Below, one piece after another: positions 1,958-22,239 of a stretch of 47,562 nt of DNA. The position numbers and the translations under genes are program-made. Location of the stretch: positions 1 to 47,562 of IMG/VR virus record IMGVR_UViG_3300015206_000003; one strand, 5' to 3'. Each line of letters starts with the position of its first letter. The first letter of the stretch is position 1. The stretch is from a virus. The notes under the pieces are model-generated. The model had not been told where the DNA came from, did no database searches, and worked only from the letters and a program-made list of their open reading frames with translations.

Positions 1958-1965
1958 TATTCGAC
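1958..1965 (-). promoter_or_regulatory. GTCGAATA late box, 7 nt before start of 988-1950 gene
   Basis: Minus-strand GTCGAATA followed by GCCCTAT and ATG. One of seven exact copies placed 7-8 nt before late start codons. It begins one base after the stop codon of the upstream gene. Confidence 0.65.
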
Positions 1966-3027
1966 TTAGAGCGGGCTCGTCATGACGCCGGCGATCTGAA
2001 CCCCGGGCGTCGTCGCGTTGCGGCCAATAGCGATAAACCACCCGAAATCGTCCAGCCAGCGAAAGTCGCTAAAGATTCTTAGCGGATCGGCTGCGATCGG
2101 CGTCCCGCGATCGATCCAGCGCGCGCCGTCGAACGACGTCATGACACGTCCGGTGGATGACACGGCCGCGAATAAAGCAAATCGCGGGCTCCACGCGACC
2201 CCCAACCAAGCCGAGGTATTATCATCGACGCTCGCGTGCGCCGTCCAGTTGACGCCGTCTGGTGAGGTAATGACCTCAAGCCCGGGCGTCGTCGATCCAA
2301 GACTGACGACGACCAGTAAGCCGAGCAGAGGCGACCAGGCGATACGTCCGAAATTGGGCGATGTCGAGGGAATCGCGCGAGCGGTCCACGTTACGCCGTC
2401 CGGCGAGGTTTGCATCGAGTCTTCCGATGTGGCGACAAATAAACTGAGTTCCTGCACCCAGAGCACGCGCCTTATGCCATTTCCACTGCTGCCGCGAGCG
2501 GTCCACGTTACGCCGTCCGGCGAGGTTTGAAACGCCACTGCCTGCCCGTTGGCGGCCGTGGCTGCGAACAGACCGAGCGGAGGCGACCAGTCGAGTCCAT
2601 CCCAAAAAAACATATCGATCGCTGCCGAATTCGAGCCGGTCCAGGTGATGCCATCGGGCGAGGTCATCGCGGGCGACGTGCCCGCCGCGCCACCGTGCGC
2701 GAGCGCCGCGAAGAGGTTGAGCGTCGAAGACCAGACAATCGCGTTCCACCCGACCGTATCGTCTGACGACGTGCGCAGGGTCCACGTGACGCCGCCGTCG
2801 TCGGACGTCATGATCTTGCTGCCGGCGGATCCGGCTGTGAAGTTGGTAACGACCAGCCTGCGAAGTGCAGGCGAGTACGCGTTATCGGACCATGCGCCGT
2901 ACTGCGGGAGATTGTGCGGAGTCCAGGCCGAAGAGAGCCGGGAGGAGTCGGCCGCGGGAACGCTCGCGACGCAGGACGGCGCGGGCGCGCTCGCGAACTG
3001 GTAGCCCTGCGGACACCCGTTTCTCAT
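1966..3027 (-). CDS. Asp-box (BNR-type) beta-propeller virion protein
   Basis: 353 residues with six Asp-box-like motifs, S-x-D-G-x-x-W, in the forms TSDDGGVTWT, TSPDGITWTG, TSPDGVTWTA (twice), TSPDGVNWTA and TSFDGARWID. They are spaced roughly 40-50 residues apart and followed by similar strands ending in LFAA or LFVA. This is the pattern of a six- or seven-bladed sialidase-like propeller. Asp boxes are structural turns and do not by themselves prove catalysis. The N-terminus (CPQGYQF...SCVA) echoes the exported neighbour at 3034-3582. A receptor-binding or decoration role on the virion is the most likely use. The blade repeats are also visible at DNA level. Confidence 0.75.
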   Translation of the reverse strand: MRNGCPQGYQFASAPAPSCVASVPAADSSRLSSAWTPHNLPQYGAWSDNAYSPALRRLVVTNFTAGSAGSKIMTSDDGGVTWTLRTSSDDTVGWNAIVWSSTLNLFAALAHGGAAGTSPAMTSPDGITWTGSNSAAIDMFFWDGLDWSPPLGLFAATAANGQAVAFQTSPDGVTWTARGSSGNGIRRVLWVQELSLFVATSEDSMQTSPDGVTWTARAIPSTSPNFGRIAWSPLLGLLVVVSLGSTTPGLEVITSPDGVNWTAHASVDDNTSAWLGVAWSPRFALFAAVSSTGRVMTSFDGARWIDRGTPIAADPLRIFSDFRWLDDFGWFIAIGRNATTPGVQIAGVMTSPL

Positions 3028-3033
3028 TCACAC

Positions 3034-3582
3034 TCACTGAAGGCCGCTCTGCAAGTAGTACAGGCAGGTTGCGTTCAAGACGCTTCCCGCTCCCCCCGCG
3101 AACGCGGCGGTGCTGTTAAAAATAATCACCGGTTTGTTTATCATTTGCGCAGAGCTTCCTGCCAAAATGATGCTGCTGCCTGCGCCAATCTGGGGCAGGG
3201 TTCCTGTCAGCAGGGCGGCCTGGACGGTGCTGCTGTAGCCTCCAGCGATGAAAGTGCCGTAACTGAAATCGATAGGGCCGCCGCCAGTGAACGAAGTGGT
3301 GCCGGAAGAATTGAGCACGCAGGTTATGAGGTGCACCAAAGTTCCTGCACCTTGAGCCGGGATCAACTGAACCGGCGTAGTGAACATGCCGTTGACCTGG
3401 GCGGCCGTCAGGGTGACGGAGCGGGATAAGATTGCGGTCGCGCCGGGAGTTGCCACGCAGACGCCGCCCGAGGCCGTGTAACCCTGCGGGCACGTCGGCT
3501 GCGCGTGAACATCGGAATGATTGAGCAGACAAGCGACAGCGAAAAACGTGAGACCTGCGAACCACGTGCGGAGACGCATCAT
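3034..3582 (-). CDS. Exported protein with Sec signal peptide, function unknown
   Basis: 182 residues from ATG 3582, chosen because AAGGA lies 7-11 nt upstream and the protein then starts with a clear signal peptide: MMRLR, hydrophobic core GLTFFAVACLL, then HAQ as a likely cleavage site. The mature part begins CPQGYTASGGVCVA, the same Cys-containing opening as the propeller protein next door, and is then beta-rich and small-residue-rich. Sec signals are unusual in virion proteins. It could be a lysogen or host-surface protein, or a virion-associated adhesin that passes the membrane. No family is recognised. Confidence 0.7.
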   Translation of the reverse strand: MMRLRTWFAGLTFFAVACLLNHSDVHAQPTCPQGYTASGGVCVATPGATAILSRSVTLTAAQVNGMFTTPVQLIPAQGAGTLVHLITCVLNSSGTTSFTGGGPIDFSYGTFIAGGYSSTVQAALLTGTLPQIGAGSSIILAGSSAQMINKPVIIFNSTAAFAGGAGSVLNATCLYYLQSGLQ

Positions 3583-3601
3583 AAAGGAATCCTTCTTTCG
3601 G

Positions 3602-4018
3602 TTAAGGCAGCATTTCGGCGTCAACCGTCACGGTTGCGACCGAACCCGCGCCCATGACGAGCTGGACCGACCAATTGATCGGCAGGTAGATCCCCGCCAC
3701 GCCGAGCAGATTGCCGCCCGCCGCGATCGTTGGCGGCAGCCACGCGCCCGGGTAGAAGTCCGCGAAGTATACGCCCGCGACGCTGAGTCCGCTGGCGAGA
3801 GCGAAGCCCACAAGCGGAATGGGAGTGGTGTTACCGGGAGCGAATCCGCAGAGAAAGACCGTATCGATCCCGCCCGTCGTCGTCGCGCCAGCCGCCACGG
3901 TGATGATGAGCCTTACGCCCTTACCCCATGTGGCGACGTGTGCGGCTGAGAACGTCGTCGAACCCGCGGCGAGCGCCACGGCGGCGATGACGTTCCGTTG
4001 TAGAGCCTTATTTTGCAT
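3602..4018 (-). CDS. Virion-associated hypothetical protein
   Basis: 138 residues, Gly/Ala/Val-rich and beta-strand-like throughout (VRLIITVAAGATTTGG, VQLVMGAGSVATVTVDAEMLP), without a convincing signal peptide. Its position directly downstream of the capsid and 4022-4543 genes, plus the small-residue-rich beta pattern, fit a capsid decoration or minor structural protein. No family is recognised. Confidence 0.65.
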   Translation of the reverse strand: MQNKALQRNVIAAVALAAGSTTFSAAHVATWGKGVRLIITVAAGATTTGGIDTVFLCGFAPGNTTPIPLVGFALASGLSVAGVYFADFYPGAWLPPTIAAGGNLLGVAGIYLPINWSVQLVMGAGSVATVTVDAEMLP

Positions 4019-4021
4019 GGA

Positions 4022-4543
4022 TTAAGAGAACGTGATGCCAACCGAGGACGTGACCAGCCAGAGGCCGTTGTAAGCCTTCAGCGTGAGTCCCGCGCCGGCG
4101 AACGCCGCGAAGGTGGCGACGTTGACCGAGGCGGATCCGGTCTGTAGAAGTCCGGTTGCAGTCAGCGTATGCGCGAAAGCGGTCGAGCTGACGATCGAGA
4201 TCACCACGCCGTCGTCCGTTCCCACCGTCGGAGCCGCCAGCGTGAGCGCGGCCACGCCAGCTTTGGTGATGATGTAGTCGGTTGGCGGTCGTACCGGCAC
4301 GGCGCCCGAGGCCGCGATGGCGAGCGGGATCTTCGCGGCGCCGTTCGGCCCGATCGCGTAGATCACCGTGCCATCGGGCTTCGTAATCTGGAAAGCGTTC
4401 GCGGTCTGATTTGTCGGGATCTGGATATCCAGCCCGACGTCGGAGCCCGCGCCGACGGTCGATTCGTGGCCCTGCGAGCCCGCGCCGCGCAGCGTTACGA
4501 CGGTCGGCCCGCGGAAGCGTGTCGGTTTGGAGAAGTCGCTCAT
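4022..4543 (-). CDS. Putative capsid decoration/minor head protein
   Basis: 173 residues from ATG 4543, three bases downstream of the capsid gene stop. The long upstream extension of the frame overlaps the capsid gene and is not used. The sequence is Thr/Ala/Gly-rich beta (RFRGPTVVTLRGAGSQG, DVGLDIQIPTNQTANAF, YIITKAGVAALTLAAPTVGTDDG). The C-terminal half resembles a repeated beta-sandwich module also seen at the C-terminus of the pentapeptide protein (VAALTLAAPTVG against AATLTLGTPTSN). A head decoration role is inferred from position. Confidence 0.65.
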   Translation of the reverse strand: MSDFSKPTRFRGPTVVTLRGAGSQGHESTVGAGSDVGLDIQIPTNQTANAFQITKPDGTVIYAIGPNGAAKIPLAIAASGAVPVRPPTDYIITKAGVAALTLAAPTVGTDDGVVISIVSSTAFAHTLTATGLLQTGSASVNVATFAAFAGAGLTLKAYNGLWLVTSSVGITFS

Positions 4544-4545
4544 GT

Positions 4546-5466
4546 TTAGCTCGAAGGCACGCCGTACGTGCCGTAATAGCCGTTGAAGCCGCAGGCGAAA
4601 CGCATCCAGCCCGCAGTCTTGACCGAGCGCGAATCGAATTCGATATCGTGGACCGTGTTGAAGGGCTCGCGCCAGTACCAGCGCAGTTCGGTGTCGGACG
4701 GATCCGATTCGAGGAACCAGGCGTGCGGATCGGTGAGGTAGTCCCAGACCTGCCACGAATCGAACGAGGGCATGCCCGAGCGGCGTTTAAACGAGTTGAT
4801 GGTGCGATTGGCGGTATCGGGCCGATCGTCGCCGCCGAGCAGTTCGGCGCCGATGAATTCCAGATCCGGCGGGAAGATCGCCCGCTTCATGGGGATTCTC
4901 TGCTTTTTCCCGCGGTGATCGAGAGATTTACGCGTGGCGCTCAGAGCGAGCTGCATCGACGTCACGTCCGGATCGGTCGCATACGCGAGCCGGTTGGACT
5001 GGACGCCGCCGCCGATCAGCGGGTGCGCGGTCGAGAACAGCGAAACGCCGTCCGGACCGTTCGCCAAAGTAAAGCCGTTGTTGAAGACCGAGGCCGCGGT
5101 GACTTCCTTCGTTTCCGACGCCGAGCGGCCGAGTTCGGTCGAGAGCTTTTTCACGACGCCGAAACGATCGTCGTCCATCGCGACCTTGGTGACGCGGAAG
5201 CCGAGCGAGTACTGGCCGTGAATGTAGGTCTTGTTGAAACCGGGCAGTGCTTCGTCGTAGCGCGTCGGTTCGCCTTCGGGTACGACCGCGAACTGGCCGA
5301 AGCCGGTGACTTCGGTGGTCTGCTCGATCGAGCGCGTCGAGGTTTCCATGCGGAAGACCTCGGAGAACTCTTCGGGGAAGCGTGCGTACTTCGTCATCAC
5401 CACTTCGTCGATCGCCGGGAGCATCGACTGAAGGTACAGATCCGGAAATATTGTCCGTATAAACAT
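4546..5466 (-). CDS. Major capsid protein (Mu gpT-like)
   Basis: 306 residues. The opening IFPDLYLQSMLPAIDEVVM, the central YSLGFRVTKVAMDDDRFGVVKKLSTELG and DGVSLFSTAHPLI, and the C-terminal RWYWREPFNTVHDIEFDSRS match the pattern of Mu gpT-like HK97-fold major head subunits. In these the LFSTAHP stretch is a frequent family marker. Scaffold-like (7049-7792) and head (5532-6107) genes lie just upstream and decoration-type genes downstream, as expected for a head module. No cleaved delta domain is evident, which agrees with a separate scaffold gene. Confidence 0.85.
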   Translation of the reverse strand: MFIRTIFPDLYLQSMLPAIDEVVMTKYARFPEEFSEVFRMETSTRSIEQTTEVTGFGQFAVVPEGEPTRYDEALPGFNKTYIHGQYSLGFRVTKVAMDDDRFGVVKKLSTELGRSASETKEVTAASVFNNGFTLANGPDGVSLFSTAHPLIGGGVQSNRLAYATDPDVTSMQLALSATRKSLDHRGKKQRIPMKRAIFPPDLEFIGAELLGGDDRPDTANRTINSFKRRSGMPSFDSWQVWDYLTDPHAWFLESDPSDTELRWYWREPFNTVHDIEFDSRSVKTAGWMRFACGFNGYYGTYGVPSS

Positions 5467-5531
5467 AGGGTTTTCTCTTTAACTTCCTGAAACCAAACCA
5501 CTGAAAACGAAGCCGTTCAACCGGGAAAATC

Positions 5532-6107
5532 CTAGACTGCGGCGGTTGCCTGGCCCTGAGACGATTTGTTGATCATCACTTCGACGATGGCGTTGGCGCC
5601 TTCGACATTCGGAGTGATCATCGCGATGCGTTGAATCTTGAGGTCGAGCGACGAAGTGCCTGCAAACGTGGCGCTGTTGACCTGGTGCGCCGACTGTTTC
5701 GTCAGCGTGCTGCCCGCTGCTACGATCGCGTTGGCGTTCTGCCCCGCCACCGTTGCCGTGGTGATGACCGTGGCACCCGAACACTGCGCGATGTAGATGA
5801 CGTCGATCTCATCCGTCACCGGATGCACCGAAGCGACAGAGGCGGCGCCGTACGTCAGCGAAGCGCCGAGAAAGAGCGACGTGCCAGGGGTGAGCTGCGA
5901 GCCCGCCTGAATGCGCGAATTGTTATAAGTTGGATTCTCGGCGAGCGGTACCGGAGTGCCGCCGGTCAGATGGCCCACGAGATCGAACATGAAGATCGGA
6001 TTCACGTCCGCCGCGGCCTTCGCGTACTGCGTCACGCTGAACGGAGTGCCGCCCGCGCGAACGATCGGACGAAAACCGAATGGATTATTGGGGTTAACCG
6101 TGGACAT
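5532..6107 (-). CDS. Head protein, capsid-decoration type
   Basis: 191 residues. AAAGG lies about 9 nt before the ATG. The N-terminus NPFGFRPIVRAGGTPFSV is a recurrent opening of small phage head proteins encoded immediately before the major capsid gene. The middle contains the short motif FLGASLTYGAAS, and the C-terminus is strand-rich. It probably forms a capsid cement or accessory head protein. The function is inferred from position and resemblance. Confidence 0.7.
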   Translation of the reverse strand: MSTVNPNNPFGFRPIVRAGGTPFSVTQYAKAAADVNPIFMFDLVGHLTGGTPVPLAENPTYNNSRIQAGSQLTPGTSLFLGASLTYGAASVASVHPVTDEIDVIYIAQCSGATVITTATVAGQNANAIVAAGSTLTKQSAHQVNSATFAGTSSLDLKIQRIAMITPNVEGANAIVEVMINKSSQGQATAAV

Positions 6108-6113
6108 AACTGT

Positions 6114-7049
6114 TTACCTTTGCCTCTCAAAATTGATGCCGGTCTCGCGTTCGCGGCCGAGATAGGTACTCGTGAGCGCGGGATCGTCGAGATCGCCGGC
6201 TGCGGACGAGCGAACGCGTTCGCCCTCCTTGAGCACCGAAATACCAGGCTTGCCGCCGAGGTCGATCTCCTGGGCCGCCCGTTCCTCGAACGATTCCTGC
6301 TGGTCGCGTACTTGTGAATTCGACTCTTCGGCGTAGTGCCGTTTGCGCGCGTCCGCCATGCGGATCGGGATCTCGCCCATCATGAGCGTGCCGACGGTCA
6401 CCGGGTTGCCGTTCTCGTCCTTGACGATCACGTAACCGCGCAGTCCGAAGCGTCCGATGCACCGTTCAGAGAGAAACTTGGGAGCCATGCCGGGAGTGCC
6501 ATAGCGCTCGACCGCTTCTTTCATCGGATCGGAATCGATCATCGCGTCCGTGCGATCCGCTTCGATCTCGACCGTGCGACACGGAATCGACATGATCCGC
6601 TTTCTAAACGCGTCAGCAACGGCTGCGACGCCGAAACGCGCGATCGCCGCGCGAAGCCCCGCCTTCATAACCGGATCGGGCACCGCGTTTTCCTCTTTGA
6701 GCAGGATCGTTTCAGCGGTCGTATTCGCGTACTCTTCCAGACCCATGCGCTCGACGTTGGCTTTCAGCGACGGGCAGGAGATCAGGAGTGGATCCGGACC
6801 GTAGAGAACACGCGTGTACGTCGGGATCGAATCGCCGAACGTCTTCTTGTCCCACTCCTCACGGAGAAAATCAACGGGATTGTCGGCGTCAGATGGTGGG
6901 TCTTTGAGGTCCAGCCCGAGATCGGTCGCGAGCGTCTTCTCGTGTTGCTTTTGCTCCTCGCGCGTCCTGATGCCGCGGAGAATGCCGGCGTTCATCGCCT
7001 CGGCAGGATCGGCCGCGGGCGGAATGATCTTCTTCTGAAACCGCGCCAT
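6114..7049 (-). CDS. Hypothetical head-module protein
   Basis: 311 residues, hydrophilic and mixed alpha/beta, without signal or membrane segments. The N-terminus is charged and Lys/Glu-rich (TREEQKQHEKTLATDLG). Later stretches include VYGT-free, soluble segments such as GLRGYVIVKDENGNPVTVGT. The ATG overlaps the preceding TAA by one base (TAATG), indicating translational coupling to the scaffold-like gene. It could be an internal head protein or assembly factor. No family is recognised. Confidence 0.7.
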   Translation of the reverse strand: MARFQKKIIPPAADPAEAMNAGILRGIRTREEQKQHEKTLATDLGLDLKDPPSDADNPVDFLREEWDKKTFGDSIPTYTRVLYGPDPLLISCPSLKANVERMGLEEYANTTAETILLKEENAVPDPVMKAGLRAAIARFGVAAVADAFRKRIMSIPCRTVEIEADRTDAMIDSDPMKEAVERYGTPGMAPKFLSERCIGRFGLRGYVIVKDENGNPVTVGTLMMGEIPIRMADARKRHYAEESNSQVRDQQESFEERAAQEIDLGGKPGISVLKEGERVRSSAAGDLDDPALTSTYLGRERETGINFERQR

Positions 7050-7792
7050 TACCGGGTACCGCCCATCTTCACGCCGGCTTTGGCGCGTTTAATGTAGGCC
7101 TCTTCGGTGATGCCCATCGAAGCGATCATGTGTTTCTGTCCTGGCGTCAACTCGTCGTCGTCCGGTTCGGCCGCCGCCGCCCGGCGTCCGCCCGATTCGC
7201 CCGCCTGCGCCGCCACGCGAGCGAGACGCGCGGTTTCCTTCTCTTCTTTCGTGGGTTCGGCGCCCGCGGGCTTGAGTTTGCCCGCGCGCATGAAGTCCAG
7301 CTCGGTCTTCTCGGCCGCCAGCTCCATCGCAACGGCCTGCGGCGTGCCGTCCTTCACGAGCGAGCCGTAATGGATCGCGGTCGACTTGAAGAAATCCGAG
7401 TCCTTTTTCTTCAGGTCCGGATACCGCCCGATCAGTTCCTGCTCTTTCGTGAGCTGCGTGGCCTTCGAGTTGATCATCGTTTCAACGTCGGCCTTTTTGA
7501 CGAAGCCGCGTTTTTCGGCGAGAGCATCGAAGCCCTTGGCGCCCCCGGTCGTAATCGCCTCGAGCACGTCCGGATCGTCTTCGGTCTCGGCGGCGGGAGC
7601 GCCAGCGGCAGCGGGAGTAGCTTTGGCTTTCGCCGCCCAGAATTCGGCGGTGCGCTGGTGCTCGGCCGAGGCCTCGGTCAGATCCTTGATCTGCTGCTCA
7701 AGAGCGGCAGTTCTTTCAGTGGCTGCTGTTGCGGCTGCTGTTGCGGCTGCGACCTGTTCGGGAGTGCCTGATGTTGTCGAGTTTTCAGCCAT
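7049..7792 (-). CDS. Scaffold-like protein
   Basis: 247 residues, highly charged and Ala/Glu/Lys-rich, with a predicted coiled coil near residues 15-60 (ERTAALEQQIKDLTEASAE) and a helical C-terminus ending in a basic tail. A low-complexity Pro/Ala linker lies near residues 60-75. Composition, length and position upstream of head and capsid genes are typical of capsid scaffolds. A GTCGAAAT sequence, a weak relative of the late box, lies 12 nt before the ATG. Confidence 0.7.
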   Translation of the reverse strand: MAENSTTSGTPEQVAAATAAATAATERTAALEQQIKDLTEASAEHQRTAEFWAAKAKATPAAAGAPAAETEDDPDVLEAITTGGAKGFDALAEKRGFVKKADVETMINSKATQLTKEQELIGRYPDLKKKDSDFFKSTAIHYGSLVKDGTPQAVAMELAAEKTELDFMRAGKLKPAGAEPTKEEKETARLARVAAQAGESGGRRAAAAEPDDDELTPGQKHMIASMGITEEAYIKRAKAGVKMGGTR

Positions 7793-7981
7793 ATACAGAA
7801 CTGATTTCGACGGTTTGCCCTCGCGCGTGCTTTTTTTGATACAAGCGGACGGAACGGGTAAACCACTGGGACTCTTGACCTTGTATTTGGAGGCGTCCGA
7901 AGGGACAATTGAAGAAGCGGGCCGAGCCGATGTTGAAGCATCGTCACGACCCTAACCACACGATCTGAGGAAACAGAACGC

Positions 7982-8862: not shown

Positions 8863-9158
8863 GCCGCCTTGGCGGGCGTAACGGGCGCCGCTTTGACGGC
8901 CGGGACTTTGACGGGCGCCGGCTTACCGAGCAGCCCGACGCCGTTGAGCGACGCGACGGTCGTATCGATCAGCGTGCCGGTTGCGGCCAGCAGCGCGGGC
9001 GAAGCGGGAGCGCCGAGCGTTTTCGCGGCGGTGGCCACCGGGTTGAGGATGATCTGCTTTTTCACGGCCGAGGGCGCGTGCTTGAACGCGCCTTCGACGG
9101 CCACGACGGATTGGAGGATGCTCGGCATCAGGCCGAGCAGCGTAACGAAGATTCCCAT
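8859..9158 (-). CDS. Small hydrophobic-start accessory protein
   Basis: 99 residues. Residues 3-20 are hydrophobic (IFVTLLGLMPSILQSVVAV) and could associate with a membrane. The middle is amphipathic helix, and the C-terminus is a Pro/Ala/Lys tail. The start is preceded by a late GTCGAATA box at 7 nt and lacks a Shine-Dalgarno sequence. Its neighbours are other small membrane or tail-rich proteins. A holin-like or membrane-associated role is possible but unproven. Confidence 0.6.
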   Translation of the reverse strand: MGIFVTLLGLMPSILQSVVAVEGAFKHAPSAVKKQIILNPVATAAKTLGAPASPALLAATGTLIDTTVASLNGVGLLGKPAPVKVPAVKAAPVTPAKAA

Positions 9159-9164
9159 GAGGGA

Positions 9165-9383
9165 CTATTCGACCGACTTCGGCGCGGGCGTTTTTGCGGG
9201 AACGGCTGCGGGTTTGGGCTCGGGTTTCGGCGCGGCGTCGAAGAACGGTTTCGCGTCGTCGCCGTGAAGGGTGATGATGTCTTTGCCGACCATGACGTGC
9301 ACGGAGCCGTCTTTGTTGTACTTAACGTGAGTGATGGCGGCGGGGTTGATCGCGTGGCCTGGAACGAAGATGAAGTCTTTCAT
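9165..9383 (-). CDS. Small hypothetical protein with Pro/Ala/Lys tail
   Basis: 72 residues. A compact N-terminal domain of about 45 residues (FIFVPGHAINPAAITHVKY, GSVHVMVGKDIITLHGDD) is followed by a Pro/Ala/Lys-rich tail. The tail resembles that of the next gene product. A GTCGAATT variant of the late box lies 8 nt before the ATG. The function is unknown. Confidence 0.65.
   Translation of the reverse strand: MKDFIFVPGHAINPAAITHVKYNKDGSVHVMVGKDIITLHGDDAKPFFDAAPKPEPKPAAVPAKTPAPKSVE
9166..9173 (-). promoter_or_regulatory. GTCGAATA late box, 7 nt before start of 8859-9158 gene
   Basis: Minus-strand GTCGAATA, spacer GTCCCTC, then ATG. It overlaps the last codons and the TAG stop of the upstream gene. 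Confidence 0.65.
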
Positions 9384-9389
9384 ACCGGG

Positions 9390-9536
9390 TCAATTCGACG
9401 CGACCGCGCGCGGACGACACCGATAGCGTCCGTACCGCAGCAGGCGGATCTGGCGCTCGACGCCGGCGAGCTGCGCGAGGAGTACTTCGAGCTTCCGAAG
9501 GCGTTTGAGGCGCTTAGAGCCCGAAACGCCCTGCAT
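9390..9536 (-). CDS. Small basic protein (48 aa)
   Basis: Begins at ATG 9536 inside the end of the small membrane-protein gene (23-nt overlap) and ends at TGA 9390. It is rich in Arg, Lys and Leu (SKRLKRLRKLEVLLAQL) and would form one amphipathic basic helix. The overlap and a stop close to the next start support a real, coupled gene, but its length limits confidence. The function is unknown. Confidence 0.5.
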   Translation of the reverse strand: MQGVSGSKRLKRLRKLEVLLAQLAGVERQIRLLRYGRYRCRPRAVASN

Positions 9537-9675: not shown

Positions 9676-9693
9676 AGTTTTTAGCCTTTCAAA

Positions 9694-10434: not shown

Positions 10435-10449
10435 TTGCCTGCGCAGCGA

Positions 10450-11517
10450 TTACCGGATGGCGCGTGTCGTGACGGCGCTCGAGTAGCTCGCCGTAGCGAA
10501 GTTGGCCGGCGGCGGATCGAAGAACCCAAGCCACTCGTAGAAGCCGTCCTGGTTGTATTTTTCGAGCGCGTTCACGCCATCGACGACGGCGTGCGGATCG
10601 GTGATGAGCGAACGCCCGACCCGCGCCACGTCGAGCGCATCGTCCGACTTCGCGATCCAGCGCGAGGGAACCCAGGGGATAGCGGACGAGACGACGGACG
10701 GCACGCCCTTGGCGATCCCGTCCGCCGTAACGATATTGAAACTCTCGGTGTAGGAAACCTGCATCATCAGGTGCAGGCCTTCGATGATGTCGAGGAAGTC
10801 CGGCCACGCCTGCCAGTTCAGGATCTTCAAGGTCACGTTCGGCTGGCTGGCAATGAGCGATTCGATGGCGCGCTCGATTGACGAGCCGCCGTCGGGACGT
10901 CCGCCGTTCATGACGAAGTCGACGGGCACGCGCAGTTCCTTGGCGATCGCGCACGCCGCGGCGGCAGCGGTCAGGAAGTTCTTGAGCGCCCGGCAGGCGC
11001 CGAACGCGCCGATTCGCACCGTTCCGCCGTTATAAAGCGGGCGGTTCTGCATCACCGTCGAGTTGAGGTCGTAAAGGTTAGGCAGGTACAGCGCTTCAAC
11101 CGAATAGACTTCCGTGAGCCAGTCGACGAACTCCTGCGAGTTGCCGGAAACGCGGAAGTTGAGCAGTTCCTTCTGCAGGTGGACGTATGACGCGAGCAGG
11201 CGCACGCCGTTGGCGTCCGCCTGCAGGAAGCCCACATTGCTGTGGATATTGACGACGAACTCGATCTGCGGGTAACGGATCACGCACTTGCCGAGATCGA
11301 GAACGGGCAGCCACGCCGCGGAGATCACGACGTGCGTAATCGAGGGATTGGCCTTGAGGAAGGCGTCGAGATCGACGATGGAATTGATGGCGAAGGCGCT
11401 GACGGGGACACCGTGGCGCTTCAGGACTTTGGCGGTATTCAGGGCGGAAACGCCGAGACCGATATGGGAGATGTTCGCGTTGGCGGCGAAGTTTTTGTAG
11501 CAGAGAGCAAGATTCAT
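10450..11517 (-). CDS. Glycosyltransferase (GT4-like, GT-B fold)
   Basis: 355 residues with a GT-B layout. The N-terminal half starts with a Gly-rich turn (ISHIGLGVSALNTAKVLKRHG) typical of GT4 enzymes. The C-terminal half contains VRIGAFGACRALKN, a linking strand NVTLKILNWQAW and the family signature SYTESFNIVTADGIAKGVP. The two acidic residues of that signature fit the E-x7-E nucleotide-sugar site with a D in place of the second E. It probably transfers a sugar to host envelope, virion or modified DNA. A GTCGAAAG variant of the late box lies near the start. It is the only clear biosynthetic enzyme in the accessory block. Confidence 0.8.
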   Translation of the reverse strand: MNLALCYKNFAANANISHIGLGVSALNTAKVLKRHGVPVSAFAINSIVDLDAFLKANPSITHVVISAAWLPVLDLGKCVIRYPQIEFVVNIHSNVGFLQADANGVRLLASYVHLQKELLNFRVSGNSQEFVDWLTEVYSVEALYLPNLYDLNSTVMQNRPLYNGGTVRIGAFGACRALKNFLTAAAAACAIAKELRVPVDFVMNGGRPDGGSSIERAIESLIASQPNVTLKILNWQAWPDFLDIIEGLHLMMQVSYTESFNIVTADGIAKGVPSVVSSAIPWVPSRWIAKSDDALDVARVGRSLITDPHAVVDGVNALEKYNQDGFYEWLGFFDPPPANFATASYSSAVTTRAIR

Positions 11518-11544
11518 GCACCTGAGTCTTTCGACTGCAGGCGC

Positions 11545-12463: not shown

Positions 12464-12628
12464 TCAGTATCGGCCGCCAGCCTTTCCGGCGGGCGGCGCC
12501 TTCACCTTTGGCGTCGTCGCCTGCGCGGGCGCGGGCATCTTGCCGCCCTTCGTGCCGCCGGTGGACGATGAACCGGTACCGCCGCGCGCGGCGACGAGAG
12601 TATTGAAATGAGGTGTGGATTTTGCCAT
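12464..12628 (-). CDS. Small Gly/Lys/Pro-rich protein (54 aa)
   Basis: Starts at ATG 12628, 7 nt downstream of a GTCGAATA late box, and ends at TGA one base before the Tad1-like start. Low complexity: Gly-Thr-Ser-rich middle and Pro/Ala/Lys C-terminus (KMPAPAQATTPKVKAPPAGK), probably disordered. Its promoter-like box and coupling to the Tad1-like gene suggest it leads the accessory operon. The function is unknown. Confidence 0.6.
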   Translation of the reverse strand: MAKSTPHFNTLVAARGGTGSSSTGGTKGGKMPAPAQATTPKVKAPPAGKAGGRY

Positions 12629-12635
12629 ACGTACC

Positions 12636-12643
12636 TATTCGAC
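12636..12643 (-). promoter_or_regulatory. GTCGAATA late box, 7 nt before start of 12464-12628 gene
   Basis: Minus-strand GTCGAATA, spacer GGTACGT, then ATG. It lies in a 49-bp intergenic gap, not in coding sequence. It would start transcription of the accessory block holding the Tad1-like and glycosyltransferase genes. Confidence 0.7.
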
Positions 12644-16330: not shown

Positions 16331-17049
16331 GACCCCGTAACCAACGGGATGCGAGCCCACACGAAGATGAGCGGTACGCCAGCCGGCAGCGGCAGCGTAA
16401 CCCCGGGTGGCAGGATGCAAGTGTAAAAGTAGGGTACGGCGGTCACCGGATCAGGCCCAGCCGCCCATGTGCTCGCGCCATAAGCATTGCCAGTCACCGG
16501 ATCGACGCAGTTACCAGGAAATGCCGCGGGTGGATGCACGCGAAACGCGATGATCGCCTTGTCGCTCGAACATTGCAGCGTCATCGTGCCGGTCGCGACG
16601 GCGAGCTGCGGGACGCAGAGAGTCCCGATACCGGGCTCGATATCGAGCGTGGTGGCCGTCCCGAGTACAACGCATCCGGCCGCTGTAGCGCATCCAGTCT
16701 CCACAGTAATGCCGACGCTTGGCGGCCCGGCCGGACCCGCCGAACCCGTCGCGCCTGGCGGTCCCCCGACGCTCGCCGGCAGCGTCACGATCGCGATCTT
16801 GTCGCCATTGTGGAGGACGCCGGACGCGAAGCGCACGCTGACGGCGGTCGGGGTTGTCGTGAGAACGTAGGCGGGTGGCGCCTGAAACGTGCCGTTGACG
16901 AAGATCATCAGCGACGATCCGGCCGCGGCCGTCAGCGACGGGAACGCCGCCGCGTTGGTTACGGTGTAGACGCGGGCGGCAGGCTGCTGCGCCACACAAA
17001 CGGCCGCGGCGAACAGACTACAAACGAGCGCCTTGACGAATTTACCCAT
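16327..17049 (-). CDS. Exported collagen-like protein
   Basis: 240 residues. A Sec signal peptide (VKALVCSLFAAAVCVAQQ) is followed by a beta domain opening with RVYTVTNAAAFPSL. A short collagen-like segment GPPGATGSAGPAGPP near residues 95-112 leads to a Cys-containing C-terminal beta domain. The start is 7 nt after a GTCGAATA late box and has no Shine-Dalgarno sequence. The collagen-like repeat suggests trimerisation, as in phage fibres. A signal peptide is unusual for a fibre, so secretion to the host surface is also possible. It overlaps the next gene start by four bases. Confidence 0.7.
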   Translation of the reverse strand: MGKFVKALVCSLFAAAVCVAQQPAARVYTVTNAAAFPSLTAAAGSSLMIFVNGTFQAPPAYVLTTTPTAVSVRFASGVLHNGDKIAIVTLPASVGGPPGATGSAGPAGPPSVGITVETGCATAAGCVVLGTATTLDIEPGIGTLCVPQLAVATGTMTLQCSSDKAIIAFRVHPPAAFPGNCVDPVTGNAYGASTWAAGPDPVTAVPYFYTCILPPGVTLPLPAGVPLIFVWARIPLVTGS

Positions 17050-17056
17050 GCATGGT

Positions 17057-17064
17057 TATTCGAC
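17057..17064 (-). promoter_or_regulatory. GTCGAATA late box, 7 nt before start of 16327-17049 gene
   Basis: Minus-strand GTCGAATA, spacer ACCATGC, then ATG. It lies between the stop of the Acb2-like gene and the exported collagen-like gene. Confidence 0.65.
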
Positions 17065-17068
17065 GATT

Positions 17069-17317
17069 TCAGTATTTTCCCCCGTGCGTGATTGCCGAGT
17101 TCGCATCCATCCGTGCCTCCCGGCACTTACGGATCGCAGCGTTGCGATCCGGCGACGGCGGCGCGTTCGCAACGATCGCCTTCACGGCGTCCGAGAGCGC
17201 TTTCCGGATCTTATGGCCGGAGTGGATCTGCTCATCCGTCCAAAAGTGGTACTCGAACGCGTCGTCGATCGCTTCTGACACTTCCGGCGTTACTTCTGTG
17301 GCGCGGGTAAAGTCCAT
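17069..17317 (-). CDS. Acb2-like (DUF7681-type) anti-CBASS sponge protein
   Basis: 82 residues, all-helical. The pattern FEYHFWTDEQI, an Arg/Lys helix, PPSPDRNAAIRKCREARM and ANSAITHGGKY matches the Acb2/DUF7681 family: F-x-Y-H near the N-terminus, a P-P-S-x-D-R turn, then R-E-A-R-M-x-A-N-x-A-I. Family members form hexamers that bind cyclic di- and trinucleotides and so block CBASS. It sits between the portal and the exported fibre-like gene. The assignment is by pattern recall. A Tad1-type gene occurs 5 kb downstream. Confidence 0.75.
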   Translation of the reverse strand: MDFTRATEVTPEVSEAIDDAFEYHFWTDEQIHSGHKIRKALSDAVKAIVANAPPSPDRNAAIRKCREARMDANSAITHGGKY

Positions 17318-17387
17318 GATTCACCATATCGTCCCACGAAACGACCTCGTCCGAGTCACCCACGTCGAAGTCGTCGCCCTCGTACAT
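17232..17387 (-). CDS. Possible small acidic protein (51 aa) overlapping the Acb2-like gene
   Basis: ATG 17387 is coupled (TGATG) to the portal stop and the first 20 residues are acidic and plausible (YEGDDFDVGDSDEVVSWDD). After that the frame overlaps the start of the Acb2-like gene by about 85 bp and becomes Arg/Ser-rich, like non-coding frame. Either it is a real short gene with an overlapping tail or a translational leader. Low confidence. Confidence 0.3.
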   Translation of the reverse strand: MYEGDDFDVGDSDEVVSWDDMVNHGLYPRHRSNAGSVRSDRRRVRVPLLDG

Positions 17388-19666
17388 CACGACGCTCCAT
17401 GCAGGTTCTCGGGATGGCCTGAGTACAGATTCGGCCCGGTTGCGGCCGGGTTGCCGGGCGGCGCCACGCCCTGGCGCGGTCCGGTGCCGAACAAGCCGTG
17501 CGCGAACGCGAGCGGATCGCCGCCCGACGCCGCGGCCGACTGCACCAGCTTCTCGATGACGGCCTGTTGCAGCTTCTTTTGCTGCAACTGCGCCATCTGC
17601 TGCATGTAGTGCGCTTCGAGCGCCTTCATGGCGTCCGGATCGCGGTTCGGATCGACCTGCGCGCGCTGATAGTCGGCGTAGTGCCGGATCATGTGGACCT
17701 GATCGTTGTCCATCGGGTTCACGTGAACCTCTTCGCCTTCGAGCATCATCGTCCACTCTTCCCGCGGGTCGATCGGGATATCGGGCGCCGGCGGCTTTGG
17801 AACCATATCCTCAAAGTTGGGATCGCCCAACGCCGCGTGCGCGTCGCTCGTGACCTGCCAGAGCGCCGTCGGGTTCTGAACAATGAGCGGGTTCTGTAAG
17901 TCGAGCTGATAGCGCGCCAGCGCCTGTTCCTTCTTCGTTTCTTTCGACCAAATCGAATTCGCGAACTGGAGCCGGAAGTCGTAACGCCCATTGCGATCCT
18001 CCAGTTCGAGCGCCGAGGCGCCGTTGTTCGTCGGGAAAAGCCCGTCGGCGTCCTCTTCGGTGACGCGGAAGAACGTCTGCTCGGGCGAGAACATGTATTC
18101 GAGTGCCCAGAAGTGCTGGAGCACGATCGCCATGTCCTCGCGCAGCACCTTCGTATCGAGCGAGATCCGGACGTTGCCCTCTTCAAGCAGGTTCACCGTC
18201 TGCGACGCCGTGCGCGGCGCGTTCGGGCGGTCCGACTGGCGCCCCATCTGGAGATCGCTCATGCCGGTTAGCTTCTCGCCGTACGCGAGGATCGTCTGTT
18301 CCTTCCATGTGACGGATTCGAGGCCCACGCCGATTTTGAACTGAATGAGATCGGTAGCCGGGTTATCCAGCGGGATGCCAAGCCCGGGCTGGATCCGGAT
18401 CGTATCGGGCGTGACGCCGGACGCCGGACGGTAGCCGAACGGTGGCGAGATCGCGAGCTGCGCGCCCTCGGTCCCGAGATTGTGATTCACACGGAGCTCG
18501 TCTTCGAGGTCGATGAGCATCTCGCCCATGCCAGGAGACCAGTACGTGCCGTCCTTGCACATCGACGCTTCGACGAACGGGCGCCGGTCCTTCATCGTGG
18601 GGTATAGCGTTTCGAGGTCCTGGACGCCGACAACCATGTTCAGTTCCGGCAGGTAGCGAATCAGGTAATCGCGCTGTTTCATTTCGCGGCGATCGAAGTC
18701 CCACTCGCCGGCGTTGGCGTTGGCTCGCTGCCCCTTCTTGACCGGACGCCAGCGCCCGTACCATTCGAGGATCATGATCCACTCGCCCGACGATTGCGGA
18801 CGGTCGTAGAGGACGCCTTCCGCTTCGTCCTTCTCCCGCTTGATCTCTTCGCCTTCCGATTCGCGCTGTTGCCCGCGCTGCGCGAACTGCACGATCTGGA
18901 GCCAGTTTTCCTTAATGCCGCGGTAACGGCCCTCCTGCTCGCCCTTCAGCAGATCATCGGGTCTGACGCGCACGCGCCGGATAACAAAGGAGAATTCCTG
19001 GAGCGTCTTCACTTCCTCGGCCGGCACGATGATGTCATCCGGCCAGCACGGTTCGAACGCCGGCCCTTCGTAATCGACGACGGTCTCGCCGCCGACTTCG
19101 TACGTGTCGCGCTTCCACGGCGAGTACGCGATCGACTTCCCAAAGATGAGCTTGCGGAGAACGAACTCGCAAAACGGGTTCAGCAGCTTCATGCTGTTGA
19201 ACACGCGCCACGTCATGTAAACCGAGATCTTCTTGTCTTTCTTGTAATCGGACGGTCCGACGGGCACGGCCTCGATCTCGGCGTCGTCACCGAAAAGCGC
19301 GTCCATTTCCTTTGCCCACTTCGTCCAGATGTTCCAGCGAATGAACGGCACGGGCACGTTAGACGCGGCTTCTTCGCCCTGCGCCGGAACGTCGGTGACC
19401 GCGCGCCAGCGGCGGTAGTACTCGCGCCAGCGACCGATGCGACGGTTGTGATCGGACAGCGCGGCGCGATAGTCCTGCTGGACCCGGTTACCGATCTTCT
19501 GGAGTTCCGAGTCTGACCATTTAAGCTGATACTCGACCTGTTGCTTCGGCGGCGCCGGCGGCGGTGGGGCTTGCTGCTGTGGTGGCGCTTGTTGCTGCGG
19601 TGGTGCGCTCACAGGCGCGTTCTGTTGTGGTGGAGGCTGTTGCCCGGGCGGCGGCTGTGGAGTCAC
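17387..19666 (-). CDS. Portal protein
   Basis: 759 residues, large and charged, starting at GTG 19666 after a late box. A Pro/Gln-rich N-terminus (about 45 residues) is followed by a helical region with YQLKWSDSELQKIGNRVQQD and YRAALSDHNRRIGRWREYYR. The central WNIWTKWAKEMDALFGDDAE and wing-like segments precede a long helical clip and crown with a Gln-rich C-terminus (HYMQQMAQLQQKKLQQA). Size, order (first gene of the unit after TerL) and the C-terminal Gln helix fit portals of short-tailed phages. It forms the dodecameric channel through which TerL packages DNA. No exact family is confirmed. Confidence 0.8.
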   Translation of the reverse strand: MTPQPPPGQQPPPQQNAPVSAPPQQQAPPQQQAPPPPAPPKQQVEYQLKWSDSELQKIGNRVQQDYRAALSDHNRRIGRWREYYRRWRAVTDVPAQGEEAASNVPVPFIRWNIWTKWAKEMDALFGDDAEIEAVPVGPSDYKKDKKISVYMTWRVFNSMKLLNPFCEFVLRKLIFGKSIAYSPWKRDTYEVGGETVVDYEGPAFEPCWPDDIIVPAEEVKTLQEFSFVIRRVRVRPDDLLKGEQEGRYRGIKENWLQIVQFAQRGQQRESEGEEIKREKDEAEGVLYDRPQSSGEWIMILEWYGRWRPVKKGQRANANAGEWDFDRREMKQRDYLIRYLPELNMVVGVQDLETLYPTMKDRRPFVEASMCKDGTYWSPGMGEMLIDLEDELRVNHNLGTEGAQLAISPPFGYRPASGVTPDTIRIQPGLGIPLDNPATDLIQFKIGVGLESVTWKEQTILAYGEKLTGMSDLQMGRQSDRPNAPRTASQTVNLLEEGNVRISLDTKVLREDMAIVLQHFWALEYMFSPEQTFFRVTEEDADGLFPTNNGASALELEDRNGRYDFRLQFANSIWSKETKKEQALARYQLDLQNPLIVQNPTALWQVTSDAHAALGDPNFEDMVPKPPAPDIPIDPREEWTMMLEGEEVHVNPMDNDQVHMIRHYADYQRAQVDPNRDPDAMKALEAHYMQQMAQLQQKKLQQAVIEKLVQSAAASGGDPLAFAHGLFGTGPRQGVAPPGNPAATGPNLYSGHPENLHGAS

Positions 19667-19673
19667 AGGAGGC

Positions 19674-19681
19674 TATTCGAC
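19674..19681 (-). promoter_or_regulatory. GTCGAATA late box, 7 nt before portal start
   Basis: Minus-strand GTCGAATA, spacer GCCTCCT, then GTG. It is downstream of a leftward terminator hairpin (19761-19791) and no gene lies between, so this short region must hold the portal promoter if the hairpin works. This is the best positional support for a promoter role. Confidence 0.75.
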
Positions 19682-19760
19682 TTGCCGCGGTGGTAAAAGG
19701 TGGTAGCCTGATGTTCAAACCGGTGAGATCGGGCGCGGTATTCGGCCGTCGCTGGATCGG

Positions 19761-19791
19761 AAAAAGGCCCGCGTGTTCTTCCGCGGGCTTT
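19761..19791 (-). terminator. Leftward hairpin terminator
   Basis: Stem GCCCGCG/CGCGGGC (19782-19788 paired with 19767-19773) with an 8-nt loop, followed on the minus strand by five T residues. It would end leftward transcription before the portal unit and is oriented away from the plus-strand genes. Confidence 0.65.
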
Positions 19792-19793
19792 CG

Positions 19794-19799
19794 TATACT
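19794..19799 (+). promoter_or_regulatory. -10 hexamer TATACT, 7 nt before start of 19807-20130 gene
   Basis: TATACT, spacer CTTTCGT, then ATG at 19807. The arrangement implies transcription starting at or near the start codon. No clear -35 is seen. Confidence 0.5.
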
Positions 19800-19806
19800 C
19801 TTTCGT

Positions 19807-20130
19807 ATGGCAAGCACGTCGAAGCTTCCGCCGCCGGGACACCCCACCGCCCCGAACTATTGGATGTGGGAAACGTCCGGCCATCTCGCCGACGCCGTTG
19901 AGCAGTACCTGGACGATGCAAACGCCTGCACTTTGCGGCAGTTGGCTTTGCTTCGCGCCTACTTCAAACAGTGGGTTGACTCGCCGGTCTGGGATATGAA
20001 CCCGTCGCATGACGAGGAATCGCGGGCGGAACTGGCGCGTCTGCGGCTCCAGTGCGACGGCATTACGAACGTGGCCGACATGAGAGCGTGGATCGCGGCG
20101 GCGATCCGGATCGATATCGATCCTCTATGA
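19807..20130 (+). CDS. Hypothetical plus-strand protein (107 aa)
   Basis: Soluble. A Pro-rich N-terminus (STSKLPPPGHPTAPNYWMWE) is followed by helical stretches (LADAVEQYLDDANACTLRQL, LLRAYFKQWVDSPVWDM, SHDEESRAELARLRLQCDGI). Its own leaderless-type promoter lies just upstream, and it is antisense to the minus late arm. It is coupled by ATGA to 20127-20414. No family is recognised. Confidence 0.65.
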   Translation: MASTSKLPPPGHPTAPNYWMWETSGHLADAVEQYLDDANACTLRQLALLRAYFKQWVDSPVWDMNPSHDEESRAELARLRLQCDGITNVADMRAWIAAAIRIDIDPL

Positions 20131-20414
20131 GCGTTGCGCACACCGTTACGTTCTGGCCGTCGGGACGCGGCAAAGCGCAATGCCCGCCCGATCCGCGCTG
20201 GCCGAACGGAATCGCCCTTGACGCGCACGGCGACGATCAGGGTCCGACGTGTCTGGTCGCGTTGCCTTATCCGGCCCCGGAGTGCGGGGCCCACCTTATC
20301 GAATGCGCGCTCTGCGGTACGAAGGTTGCGATAACGGCGGCCGGACGTCCCGACGACCCCGTCAGCGTCCGCCTGTTGTGCTTCGTGGAAGCCATAACGA
20401 AACCCTCTGCCTAA
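20127..20414 (+). CDS. Hypothetical plus-strand protein (95 aa)
   Basis: ATG overlaps the previous stop as ATGA. Compact alpha/beta sequence (HTVTFWPSGRGKAQ, LVALPYPAPECGAHL) with two Cys-containing stretches (ECGAHLIECALCGT), possibly metal-binding or disulphide-linked. The two-gene plus-strand island is flanked by minus genes on both sides. The function is unknown. Confidence 0.65.
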   Translation: MSVAHTVTFWPSGRGKAQCPPDPRWPNGIALDAHGDDQGPTCLVALPYPAPECGAHLIECALCGTKVAITAAGRPDDPVSVRLLCFVEAITKPSA

Positions 20415-20457
20415 GGCGGCGTCGCCGTCACGAGCACCGTGCCGCAACAATTCGACT

Positions 20458-20556
20458 TCATGGCTTCCCGATCGTTCCGCGCCACCACGCCGCCACGTAT
20501 CGAAACGGCAGCTTGACGATGGCCCACCAGAGCGGGTCTTGCTTCGCCGGCGTCAT
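20458..20556 (-). CDS. Small Trp/Arg-rich protein (32 aa)
   Basis: ATG 20556 overlaps the upstream stop (ATGA). The residues DPLWWAIVKLPFRYVAAWWR form an aromatic amphipathic segment that could sit at a membrane. Coupling to 20553-20969 supports translation; the function is unknown. Confidence 0.45.
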   Translation of the reverse strand: MTPAKQDPLWWAIVKLPFRYVAAWWRGTIGKP

Positions 20557-20969
20557 TTGTCCTTCGGGATCGCCGTCGGAGCGTACGAACGCGAGCCGGT
20601 CCGCGTGCTGGTACACAGCTCCTCTATCTCATGCTTGAGGAGTACCCCTTCGAGCGCCTTCTTCGTCACGTTTACGATTGCAAGGAAGACTGCCGCGCCG
20701 AGCCGTTTGCGGACAGCGGGAACGTCCGGCTTCGACTCCATCGAGCATGGTGAGATCCGGAGTTCAAAGCGTTCACCCTTGGCGTTAAATTCCGCTTCCG
20801 GATCTTCATTCTCCACCAGCGCCTTCAACCGCTCGCGGCATTTCTGATAACGCCGTTCGGTGGGTGCGAACTCGTCGCGGAGTTTGGTGAGATCGCCCCA
20901 CTCATCGATAAGATCGGCGGGAACGATCTGCGTCAGGACGGGAACGGCAGCGGATTTTGTTGCAGTCAT
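20553..20969 (-). CDS. Hypothetical protein (138 aa), possibly recombination-associated
   Basis: Helical N-terminal half with charged stretch (EWGDLTKLRDEFAPTERRYQ), then FELRISPCSMESKPDVPAVR and VNVTKKALEGVLLKHEIEEL. This layout recalls small host-nuclease or recombination-associated phage proteins, but no signature is decisive. The ATG is 8 nt downstream of a late GTCGAATA box. A basic plus-strand ORF lies back to back with it. Confidence 0.6.
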   Translation of the reverse strand: MTATKSAAVPVLTQIVPADLIDEWGDLTKLRDEFAPTERRYQKCRERLKALVENEDPEAEFNAKGERFELRISPCSMESKPDVPAVRKRLGAAVFLAIVNVTKKALEGVLLKHEIEELCTSTRTGSRSYAPTAIPKDK

Positions 20970-20977
20970 ACAAGAAA

Positions 20978-20985
20978 TATTCGAC
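20978..20985 (-). promoter_or_regulatory. GTCGAATA late box, 8 nt before start of 20553-20969 gene
   Basis: Minus-strand GTCGAATA, spacer TTTCTTGT, then ATG. This is the only copy with an 8-nt spacer and the only one with a plausible -35-like TTGGCA at a 17-nt distance from TCGAAT. Confidence 0.6.
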
Positions 20986-21008
20986 AGGCCACACGCAAAC
21001 CTGCCAAG

Positions 21009-21098
21009 ATGGAAAACATGAAAAACACCAAATCGGCGAAAGCCCCTAAGAAGTCTGAGACCAAGAAGTCGACCGCGAAGAAGCCCGCAAAGAAGTAG
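21009..21098 (+). CDS. Small Lys-rich basic protein (29 aa)
   Basis: ATG 21009 to TAG, with 13 Lys residues in 29 (KAPKKSETKKSTAKKPAKK), resembling histone H1-like tails. It lies between a minus-strand promoter box and the end of the endolysin gene, on the opposite strand. A DNA-binding or condensing role is possible. Length limits confidence. Confidence 0.45.
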   Translation: MENMKNTKSAKAPKKSETKKSTAKKPAKK

Positions 21099-21539
21099 TT
21101 ACGCCGCGTTCGCCACGGCTGCCGCATCCCACGCCGACTGCGCGCCCGCAGCGTTGTAACACCAGCGCGCCGGCGTCGTTCTGACGTCCACGTGGATGTA
21201 ACCCTGATCGAGCGCGACGCCGATCCCGCCGTTGCGAAACGCGGGAACGAGTCGCGCTTTCCGGTACATCCCTGCAGGCGTCATTCCCACAATCATGATG
21301 TCCGCCGCGTTGCCCTGGACGTGCTCGGAATCCGCGACGCCGCCGACTTCGGCGTTATGCGCCGCGCAACGATACGCGCTCGTGACGACGATCGGGACGT
21401 TGCCGGCGACGGTTCGGAGCGCTTCGAGAGCATCTAGCAACCGGCTAGTCGTGAGATTGAGACCGCCGCAATGCGCGCAGTTGATCCCGCTGTGACACTT
21501 CAGTTCATCGTGCGAGAAGTGCGTTGACGTGTTTTCCAT
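21099..21539 (-). CDS. Endolysin, M15 zinc peptidase (Peptidase_M15_3-like)
   Basis: 146 residues, single domain. The order of zinc and catalytic motifs fits M15 LAS peptidases: SAYRCAAHNAEVGG near residue 55, then SEHVQGNAADI with the His and Asp ligands near 72-80, and GYIHVDVR near 114 with the third His. These enzymes cleave the L-Ala/D-Glu or D-Ala bonds of peptidoglycan; here it would lyse the host at the end of infection. The short Cys-rich N-terminus (CHSGINCAHCGG) may add a zinc site. There is no signal peptide, so a holin is expected. Confidence 0.85.
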   Translation of the reverse strand: MENTSTHFSHDELKCHSGINCAHCGGLNLTTSRLLDALEALRTVAGNVPIVVTSAYRCAAHNAEVGGVADSEHVQGNAADIMIVGMTPAGMYRKARLVPAFRNGGIGVALDQGYIHVDVRTTPARWCYNAAGAQSAWDAAAVANAA

Positions 21540-21542
21540 TGA

Positions 21543-21740
21543 CTACGCCCCGACGGCTTTCGACGCCGCCTTCGATCCCCCACCCAATTGAGGCTTTTCC
21601 GGATTCCGTTCCAGTTCGGCCGCCAGTTCGGCCGGCGTCATGCCGTCGCGATGCGCCTGCAGAGCGATCATAAGCCAAAGGTTCGTAGTCGGATATCGCA
21701 AACGATACAGCGCCTGCCGGATCGTCTCGTCCGGCGTCAT
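21543..21740 (-). CDS. Hypothetical protein (65 aa)
   Basis: Helical and soluble, with a conserved-looking core DETIRQALYRLRYPTTN and MTPAELAAELERNPEKPQ. The start overlaps the stop of 21737-21976 (ATGA), so it is translated with it. No family is recognised. Confidence 0.6.
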   Translation of the reverse strand: MTPDETIRQALYRLRYPTTNLWLMIALQAHRDGMTPAELAAELERNPEKPQLGGGSKAASKAVGA

Positions 21741-21976
21741 CGCCGTTTCGCCGCGTCGTTGAGCGCCGAGCGCAGGCCGCCGGGCGCCACGCGGTTCGCC
21801 CTCGCGTCGATCTTCTTCTTAGTCGAGCTGCTGATGTTGCCAACACGTTCGGCGCGTGACGCCCCGCTCTTTGCCGCCCGGGCGTGGCTGGCATCGTTTA
21901 CGGGGAACGTACGATTCGGGCCGGCGAACGCTGAAGCGGGGAGCGCGTTACGCGCTGCTGCTGTGAGTCTTGCCAT
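21737..21976 (-). CDS. DUF6582-like small virion-associated protein
   Basis: 79 residues from ATG 21976, supported by the late box 7 nt upstream and by the opening LTAAARNALPASAFAGPNRT, followed by NDASHARAAKSGASRA and a Lys-rich helix (SSTKKKIDARANR). This resembles the DUF6582 pattern often found in phages near protease or head genes. The longer upstream frame is not used. The function is unknown. Confidence 0.65.
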   Translation of the reverse strand: MARLTAAARNALPASAFAGPNRTFPVNDASHARAAKSGASRAERVGNISSSTKKKIDARANRVAPGGLRSALNDAAKRR

Positions 21977-22239
21977 GCGAGAGTATTCGACCGAGACCAT
22001 TCTCGAAAATATCGCGGGCAAGGTCCTCTTGCGCCCGTCTGGCCTCGCTGGCCAAGTGCCGCGCCGAGCTCCATCGCGTAACGGAATTCTACCGAGTAAT
22101 GGCGGAACGTGTAGGCCACGGGCGGCGGCGGAATGCTGATCGTCTTCGCCCCGCGCACCCACAACAGACGTTCCGGATCGAGCGTCGCGCCCGCCGCGAC
22201 CGCCGCGAGAAGCCCGAGAAAGCCGCGTCGTGACGTCAT
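21898..22239 (-). CDS. Tat-signal-like protein, probably frameshifted near its C-terminus
   Basis: The N-terminus SRRGFLGLLAAVAAG matches a twin-arginine-type signal (SRRGFL plus hydrophobic core). The in-frame protein is normal to about residue 60 (FRYAMELGAALG), then becomes Arg/Ser-rich and runs to 21898 over the next gene. Skipping one base in GGCGCGGCACTTGGCC would continue as LASEARRAQEDLARDIFENG and end near 21948. That reads as a coherent charged helix. So there is either a sequencing indel or a +1 frameshift. The protein would lie at or beyond the membrane. No catalytic motif is visible. Confidence 0.6.
   Translation of the reverse strand: MTSRRGFLGLLAAVAAGATLDPERLLWVRGAKTISIPPPPVAYTFRHYSVEFRYAMELGAALGQRGQTGARGPCPRYFREWSRSNTLAWQDSQQQRVTRSPLQRSPARIVRSP
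21984..21991 (-). promoter_or_regulatory. GTCGAATA late box, 7 nt before start of 21737-21976 gene
   Basis: Minus-strand GTCGAATA, spacer CTCTCGC, then ATG. It lies inside the 3-prime part of the upstream frame. Confidence 0.6.

Follow-up and report, generated by a model that had tools for sequence, protein, structure and literature searches.

The window, i.e. the whole stretch of DNA analysed here, is an IMG/VR virus record of 47,562 bases. It contains seven exact copies of the octamer GTCGAATA (hereafter the box), at positions 1958, 9166, 12636, 17057, 19674, 20978 and 21984, all on the minus strand, and our recount of the window agrees with the original prediction that there are no further exact copies. 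Dinucleotide shuffles of the window contained a mean of 1.2 copies, with seven or more being reached in 0 of 100 shuffles. The spacers between the boxes and their start codons, earlier given as 7, 7, 7, 7, 7, 8 and 7 nt, were reproduced exactly. Since a random 8-mer of the window falls 7-8 nt before an ORF (ATG or GTG start, at least 50 codons) with a probability of 0.023, the placement of all seven boxes at this distance corresponds to a p-value of about 3e-12.

Boxed genes and their surroundings

Upon examining the individual genes, we find that the box at 21984-21991 (-) is followed after 7 nt by an ATG at 21976, which opens a DUF6582-like protein of 79 aa (MARLTAAARN...). This start is internal to a longer ORF, and the N-terminus of the 79-aa protein is conserved at the boxed starts of two relatives (L038 and G013), supporting the boxed internal start as its probable true N-terminus. 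The box at 20978-20985 (-) has the single spacer of 8 nt, before the ATG at 20969 of a 138-aa protein with ten boxed homologues in relatives, and that at 19674-19681 (-) stands 7 nt before the GTG at 19666 of the portal gene (759 aa, 17387-19666), whose homologues are also boxed and keep the box despite N-termini of differing length. The remaining four boxes all have spacers of 7 nt and precede the ATG at 17049 of a 240-aa protein (box 17057-17064 (-)), the ATG at 12628 of a 54-aa protein, MAKSTPH... (box 12636-12643 (-)), the ATG at 9158 of a 99-aa protein (box 9166-9173 (-)) and the ATG at 1950 of a 320-aa protein, MSTWGQLRF... (box 1958-1965 (-)). For the 54-aa gene, L043 has a homologue with a box, and in G001 a boxed start codes for MAKSTPH; homologues of the 320-aa gene are boxed in several relatives, of which two have the related octamer GGCGAATA.

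Three variant boxes were present as previously described. GTCGAATT at 9392-9399 (-) lies 8 nt before the ATG at 9383 of a 72-aa protein with boxed homologues in relatives, whereas the weaker variants GTCGAAAG at 11528-11535 (-) and GTCGAAAT at 7804-7811 (-) lie 10 nt before the ATG at 11517 (355 aa) and 11 nt before the ATG at 7792 (247 aa), respectively. In relatives the core GTCGAA is still enriched at 10-13 nt from starts. The gene behind the first of the weaker variants, 10450-11517 (-) in the late region, matches GT4-conflict (a glycosyltransferase of conflict systems, 3.4e-7) and is possible defence cargo.

The spacers of the boxed genes in the window contain no Shine-Dalgarno (SD) sequence, in line with the original prediction, whereas several early plus-strand genes have strong ones. 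The leftward terminator hairpin that had been placed before the portal box was likewise found, at 19767-19788 (-), where seven G-C pairs are followed by CTTTTT; no other terminator match in the region is as G-C-rich. The portal box lies 86 nt behind this intrinsic terminator, and the interval between the two contains no sigma-70-type match. A promoter of that type, TTGACA-18-TATACT, precedes the plus-strand early genes at 26885-26914 (+), being an 11/12 match from a consensus scan only. The minus-strand late genes between 34 and 47 kb (34345-47191) are not preceded by an exact box; if the genome is circular or circularly permuted, they may be served by read-through that begins at box 1958. A Gp157/Gam-like protein at 27609-28388 (+) and a tyrosine integrase at 28701-29690 (-) indicate that the phage is probably temperate.

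Conservation of the box in relatives

We used the terminase large subunit (22480-24237 (-)) as the anchor for finding relatives. A terminase search returned 13 relatives in IMG/VR, forming the discovery set, and a terminase alignment search returned 44 viral loci and six places in genome assemblies, four of which belong to Bryobacterales/Bryobacteraceae MAGs. A divergent relative (L070) lies within a long Bryobacterales MAG contig (DAIDIH010000057.1, 100,515 bp), which suggests acidobacterial hosts.

Gene calls were made with a simple purpose-made codon-usage caller. GTCGAATA was found exactly 7 nt before an ORF start in 27 of 46 cases in the discovery set (window included). The position test proposed in the original prediction was run on a separate set of 37 loci outside discovery, where 17 of 41 copies were at exactly 7 nt, the highest value among all 1680 permutations of the box letters. 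Permuted letters served as the control because unrestricted 8-mer counts at 7 nt, which we discarded for this purpose, are topped by GC-rich words from overlapping ORFs. The backward-read box pattern, as a further control, occurred 0 times in 13 phage records. Orthologous genes are boxed across relatives, among them those of the portal, the MSTWGQ protein and the 138-aa protein, and in total 72 of 110 boxes are at exactly 7 nt from the start codon. The pattern that had been named as evidence against the idea, many copies far from any start in relatives, was not observed: there are 97 clade-type boxes on the late strand versus 14 on the other, and roughly two in three of the late-strand boxes are followed by a start codon at 6-10 nt. 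The term late is used here on the basis that the boxed genes are structural.

In the main group, GTCGAAAG also occurs ahead of the capsid-like gene; these stretches were considered as boxes and rejected, as they look like the coding end of the upstream gene. In one relative (L053) the boxes at 1589, 6284 and 9116 read GTCGAAGT, two of them with a spacer of 7 nt and the third ahead of a capsid-like gene that has an SD, and this octamer is possibly a third box type.

A phage sigma factor and two box types

At 24635-25399 (-), and immediately upstream of the terminase in almost all of the relatives in which that stretch is present, lies the gene of a phage sigma factor of 254 aa, nearest to FliA/sigma-28 and the predicted reader of the box. 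The ORF matches Pfam Sigma70_r2 (E 1.1e-10, score 41.6 versus a cut-off of 24) and TIGR02937 (E 1.7e-18, score 66.8 versus 42.9), with the FliA_WhiG model TIGR02479 coming second at a score of 59.7, below its family cut-off of 189.6; its best PDB chains are FliA (E 4e-9). An ECF identity, suggested by the first Pfam hit alone, was rejected, as PDB and NCBIfam place FliA/WhiG nearest among the named subfamilies. Region 4 is weak in the Pfam search (Sigma70_r4_2, E 0.064, below cut-off), and helices at 207-252 are confident in an AF2 model that is as a whole only moderate (pLDDT 71, pTM 0.39); the fold-search neighbours of this moderate model are sigma factors. The protein had no match at E 1e-5 among 50,697 deposited phage records, and our literature search found no report on either the phage sigma or the box. 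One relative (L067) has a second sigma-like ORF at 6337-6988 besides the terminase-adjacent one. The sigma gene, the sigma-28 likeness and the sister type GGCGAATA were not part of the original prediction.

The sigma-28 consensus is TAAAGTTT-n11-GCCGATAA, with GCCGATAA being the -10 octamer, and at the aer promoter transcription starts 6 bp downstream of this octamer (PMC2859248), the conserved A of which is position -11 (PMC12781870). Both GTCGAATA and GGCGAATA are alike, though not identical, to GCCGATAA, with a compatible spacing to +1 (about 6-7 nt after the octamer). When the conserved A is set at -11 as in sigma-28, GTCGAATA spans -15 to -8 and +1 is predicted to coincide with the first base of the start codon. 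A strong -35 element was rejected, since de novo k-mer counts found none and only a slight signal; the TAAA -35 box that characterises sigma-28 promoters was not found 15 nt upstream of the octamer, and at -19 to -17, where sigma-28 promoters have their -35 element, purines/A are slightly in excess (p = 3e-4 at -19 and about 0.01 at -18 and -17).

A sister phage set uses GGCGAATA at the same place as GTCGAATA. At the diagnostic distance, GGCGAA occurs 21 times in the sister set against 0.74 expected, and in the main set GTCGAA occurs 61 times against 0.95 expected, with only two GGCGAA against 1.24 expected; three members of the GGC set (L063, L056 and L051) retain some GTC boxes. On the sigma tree the box type requires two changes, as few being obtained in 0 of 1000 shuffles, and on the terminase tree four changes (9 of 1000 shuffles), so the switch between GTC and GGC boxes follows the sigma phylogeny. 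We infer the pairing of sigma and box from this covariation together with the linkage. Residue 150 of the sigma, which by FliA alignment lies just after region 2.4, is lysine (K) in 21 of the 23 phages of GTC type and arginine (R) in all 7 of GGC type, a difference that serves as a lead only because the lineages are related.

Promoter reading, rival explanations and known systems

The bases between box and gene were counted over 72 deduplicated boxes at 7 nt. A pyrimidine directly precedes the start codon in 66 of them, compared with 47% in SD genes, and one base before this pyrimidine, at box+6, there is a G in 47. Where the start codon is 9-12 nt from the box, a group in which some examples may be due to chance, the G is at box+6 in 11 of 16 cases (p = 0.002) versus 6 of 16 at -2 of the codon, indicating that it is anchored to the box and does not move with the start codon. 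Among 56 starts behind exact-A boxes, TTG was never found at box+8, as expected if the base at box+8 is +1.

We consider it very probable that the FliA-like sigma encoded by the phage recognises GTCGAATA as the -10 element of its late promoters, most of the resulting mRNAs being leaderless. The original prediction had favoured a promoter with transcripts beginning at or close to the ATG, and the promoter part is strengthened by the FliA-like sigma gene, the separate SD-bearing starts in relatives, the box-anchored initiator and the box type following the sigma; the portal box standing behind a terminator also favours it. Counting against it are the weak region 4, the slight -35 signal, the GTC boxes retained in the GGC set and the lack of an exact box before the minus-strand genes at 34-47 kb. 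A translation-initiation signal that replaces the SD on SD-less genes would account for a box that takes the place of an SD with a constant spacer of 7 nt, and none of 104 boxed genes has an SD, a count that is partly forced, since the SD slot is already taken up by the box. In several relatives, however, the same box lies 16-36 nt upstream of starts with their own SD. This is the case for a conserved capsid-like MANPNNPFGFRP gene of ~190 aa in G009 (44502), L056, L051, L063 and L059, and for other genes in G005, L045, L062 and L039. A signal akin to an SD should lie within the mRNA and set the start codon, which the separate SD-bearing starts and the box-anchored initiator argue against indirectly, and we rejected such a role on the strength of the former. 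The G at box+6 staying with the box, the resemblance to the sigma-28 -10 element, the way in which box type follows sigma phylogeny and the normal SDs of early genes in the same phage also make a ribosome signal very unlikely.

Other rivals keep a role in transcription. Reading of the box by a sigma-28/FliA-type factor of the host is suggested by its closeness to GCCGATAA, which bacterial FliA reads; we regard it as having only a slim chance, since linkage of the phage sigma is kept in almost every relative and a change of sigma goes with a change of box type. That the box is an operator, bound by a phage repressor or activator close to where late genes start, with two small HTH proteins of the early region as possible candidates, is the least plausible and highly improbable, given that the box is not palindromic, is strictly oriented, keeps a base-exact distance to starts and follows the sigma, and that no other promoter motif was found upstream of boxed genes. 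The promoter part of our explanation is shared by a further alternative, in which transcription begins at scattered positions and the majority of late mRNAs have a short untranslated leader. Spacers of 8-11 nt and SD leaders do exist, but most boxes keep a spacer of exactly 7 nt, the codon behind them opens with a purine that follows a pyrimidine, and TTG starts are absent behind exact-A boxes (0 of 56), which leaves this version unlikely.

Under the phage-sigma promoter with leaderless mRNAs, host sigma-70 would transcribe the early genes and the sigma operon first, after which the phage sigma, bound to the box on host RNA polymerase, would switch on the structural genes, many of which are served by their own box. 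The box would act as a -10 element at about -15 to -8. At most late genes it stands close enough to the start codon for the mRNA to be expected to begin there, without a ribosome-binding leader; this leaderless 5' end is predicted from the box spacing and the pyrimidine-purine initiator, with +1 being the first base of the start codon at most late promoters. Spacers of 8-11 nt would leave a leader of a few nt, and some genes of relatives, including the ~190-aa capsid-like gene, would combine this box with an ordinary leader and SD. A more far-reaching idea, which we hold as doubtful, is that the late programme of a broad soil-phage group is leaderless by design, a phage sigma producing mRNAs whose first codon is AUG or GUG at the very 5' end and thereby shifting late translation onto the leaderless route, with a few capsid-like genes given SD leaders for higher output and shifts in the sigma (perhaps K150 to R) retuning the -14 base from T to G.

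Box and sigma together offer a ready reading of late transcription for uncultured soil phages and let true gene starts be called, and the GTC and GGC types provide sigma/-10 pairs in a natural series with which promoter specificity can be studied. Should the leaderless geometry prove true, the phage would have a regulon that fuses promoter and start codon at many genes, and this would be a good test bed for the translation of leaderless mRNAs and for why a virus would prefer them.

When compared with known systems, the closest arrangement is that of phiEco32, where the phage sigma gp36 directs host RNAP to one element (tAATGTAtA) that precedes later genes, and transcription starts 6-8 bp downstream of it (PMC8948821). 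The middle/late promoters of gp36 share with the window a phage sigma and a single conserved element before late genes. They differ in the motif and in the lineage of the sigma, which here is FliA-like and seems to keep region 4. In addition, the element here keeps a fixed spacer of 7 nt to the start codon, leaderless mRNAs being predicted, and sister phages switch the second box base. The late promoters of phage 7-11 gp47 (GTAAtg-16-aCTA) also combine a phage sigma with late genes and a specificity that diverged between related phages, but their consensus is bipartite with a clear upstream element, in contrast to the slight -35 signal observed here. Bacterial FliA/sigma-28 promoters have a -10 octamer of the same form, GNCGAWWA, at a similar distance to +1, and FliA proteins are the nearest solved relatives of the phage sigma, which nevertheless scores far under the FliA family cut-off (59.7 versus 189.6) and lacks the TAAA box at its promoters. 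Mycobacterial leaderless transcripts are mRNAs starting at ATG or GTG. The same mRNA start is predicted here, with the difference that the geometry belongs to a phage late regulon with its own sigma.
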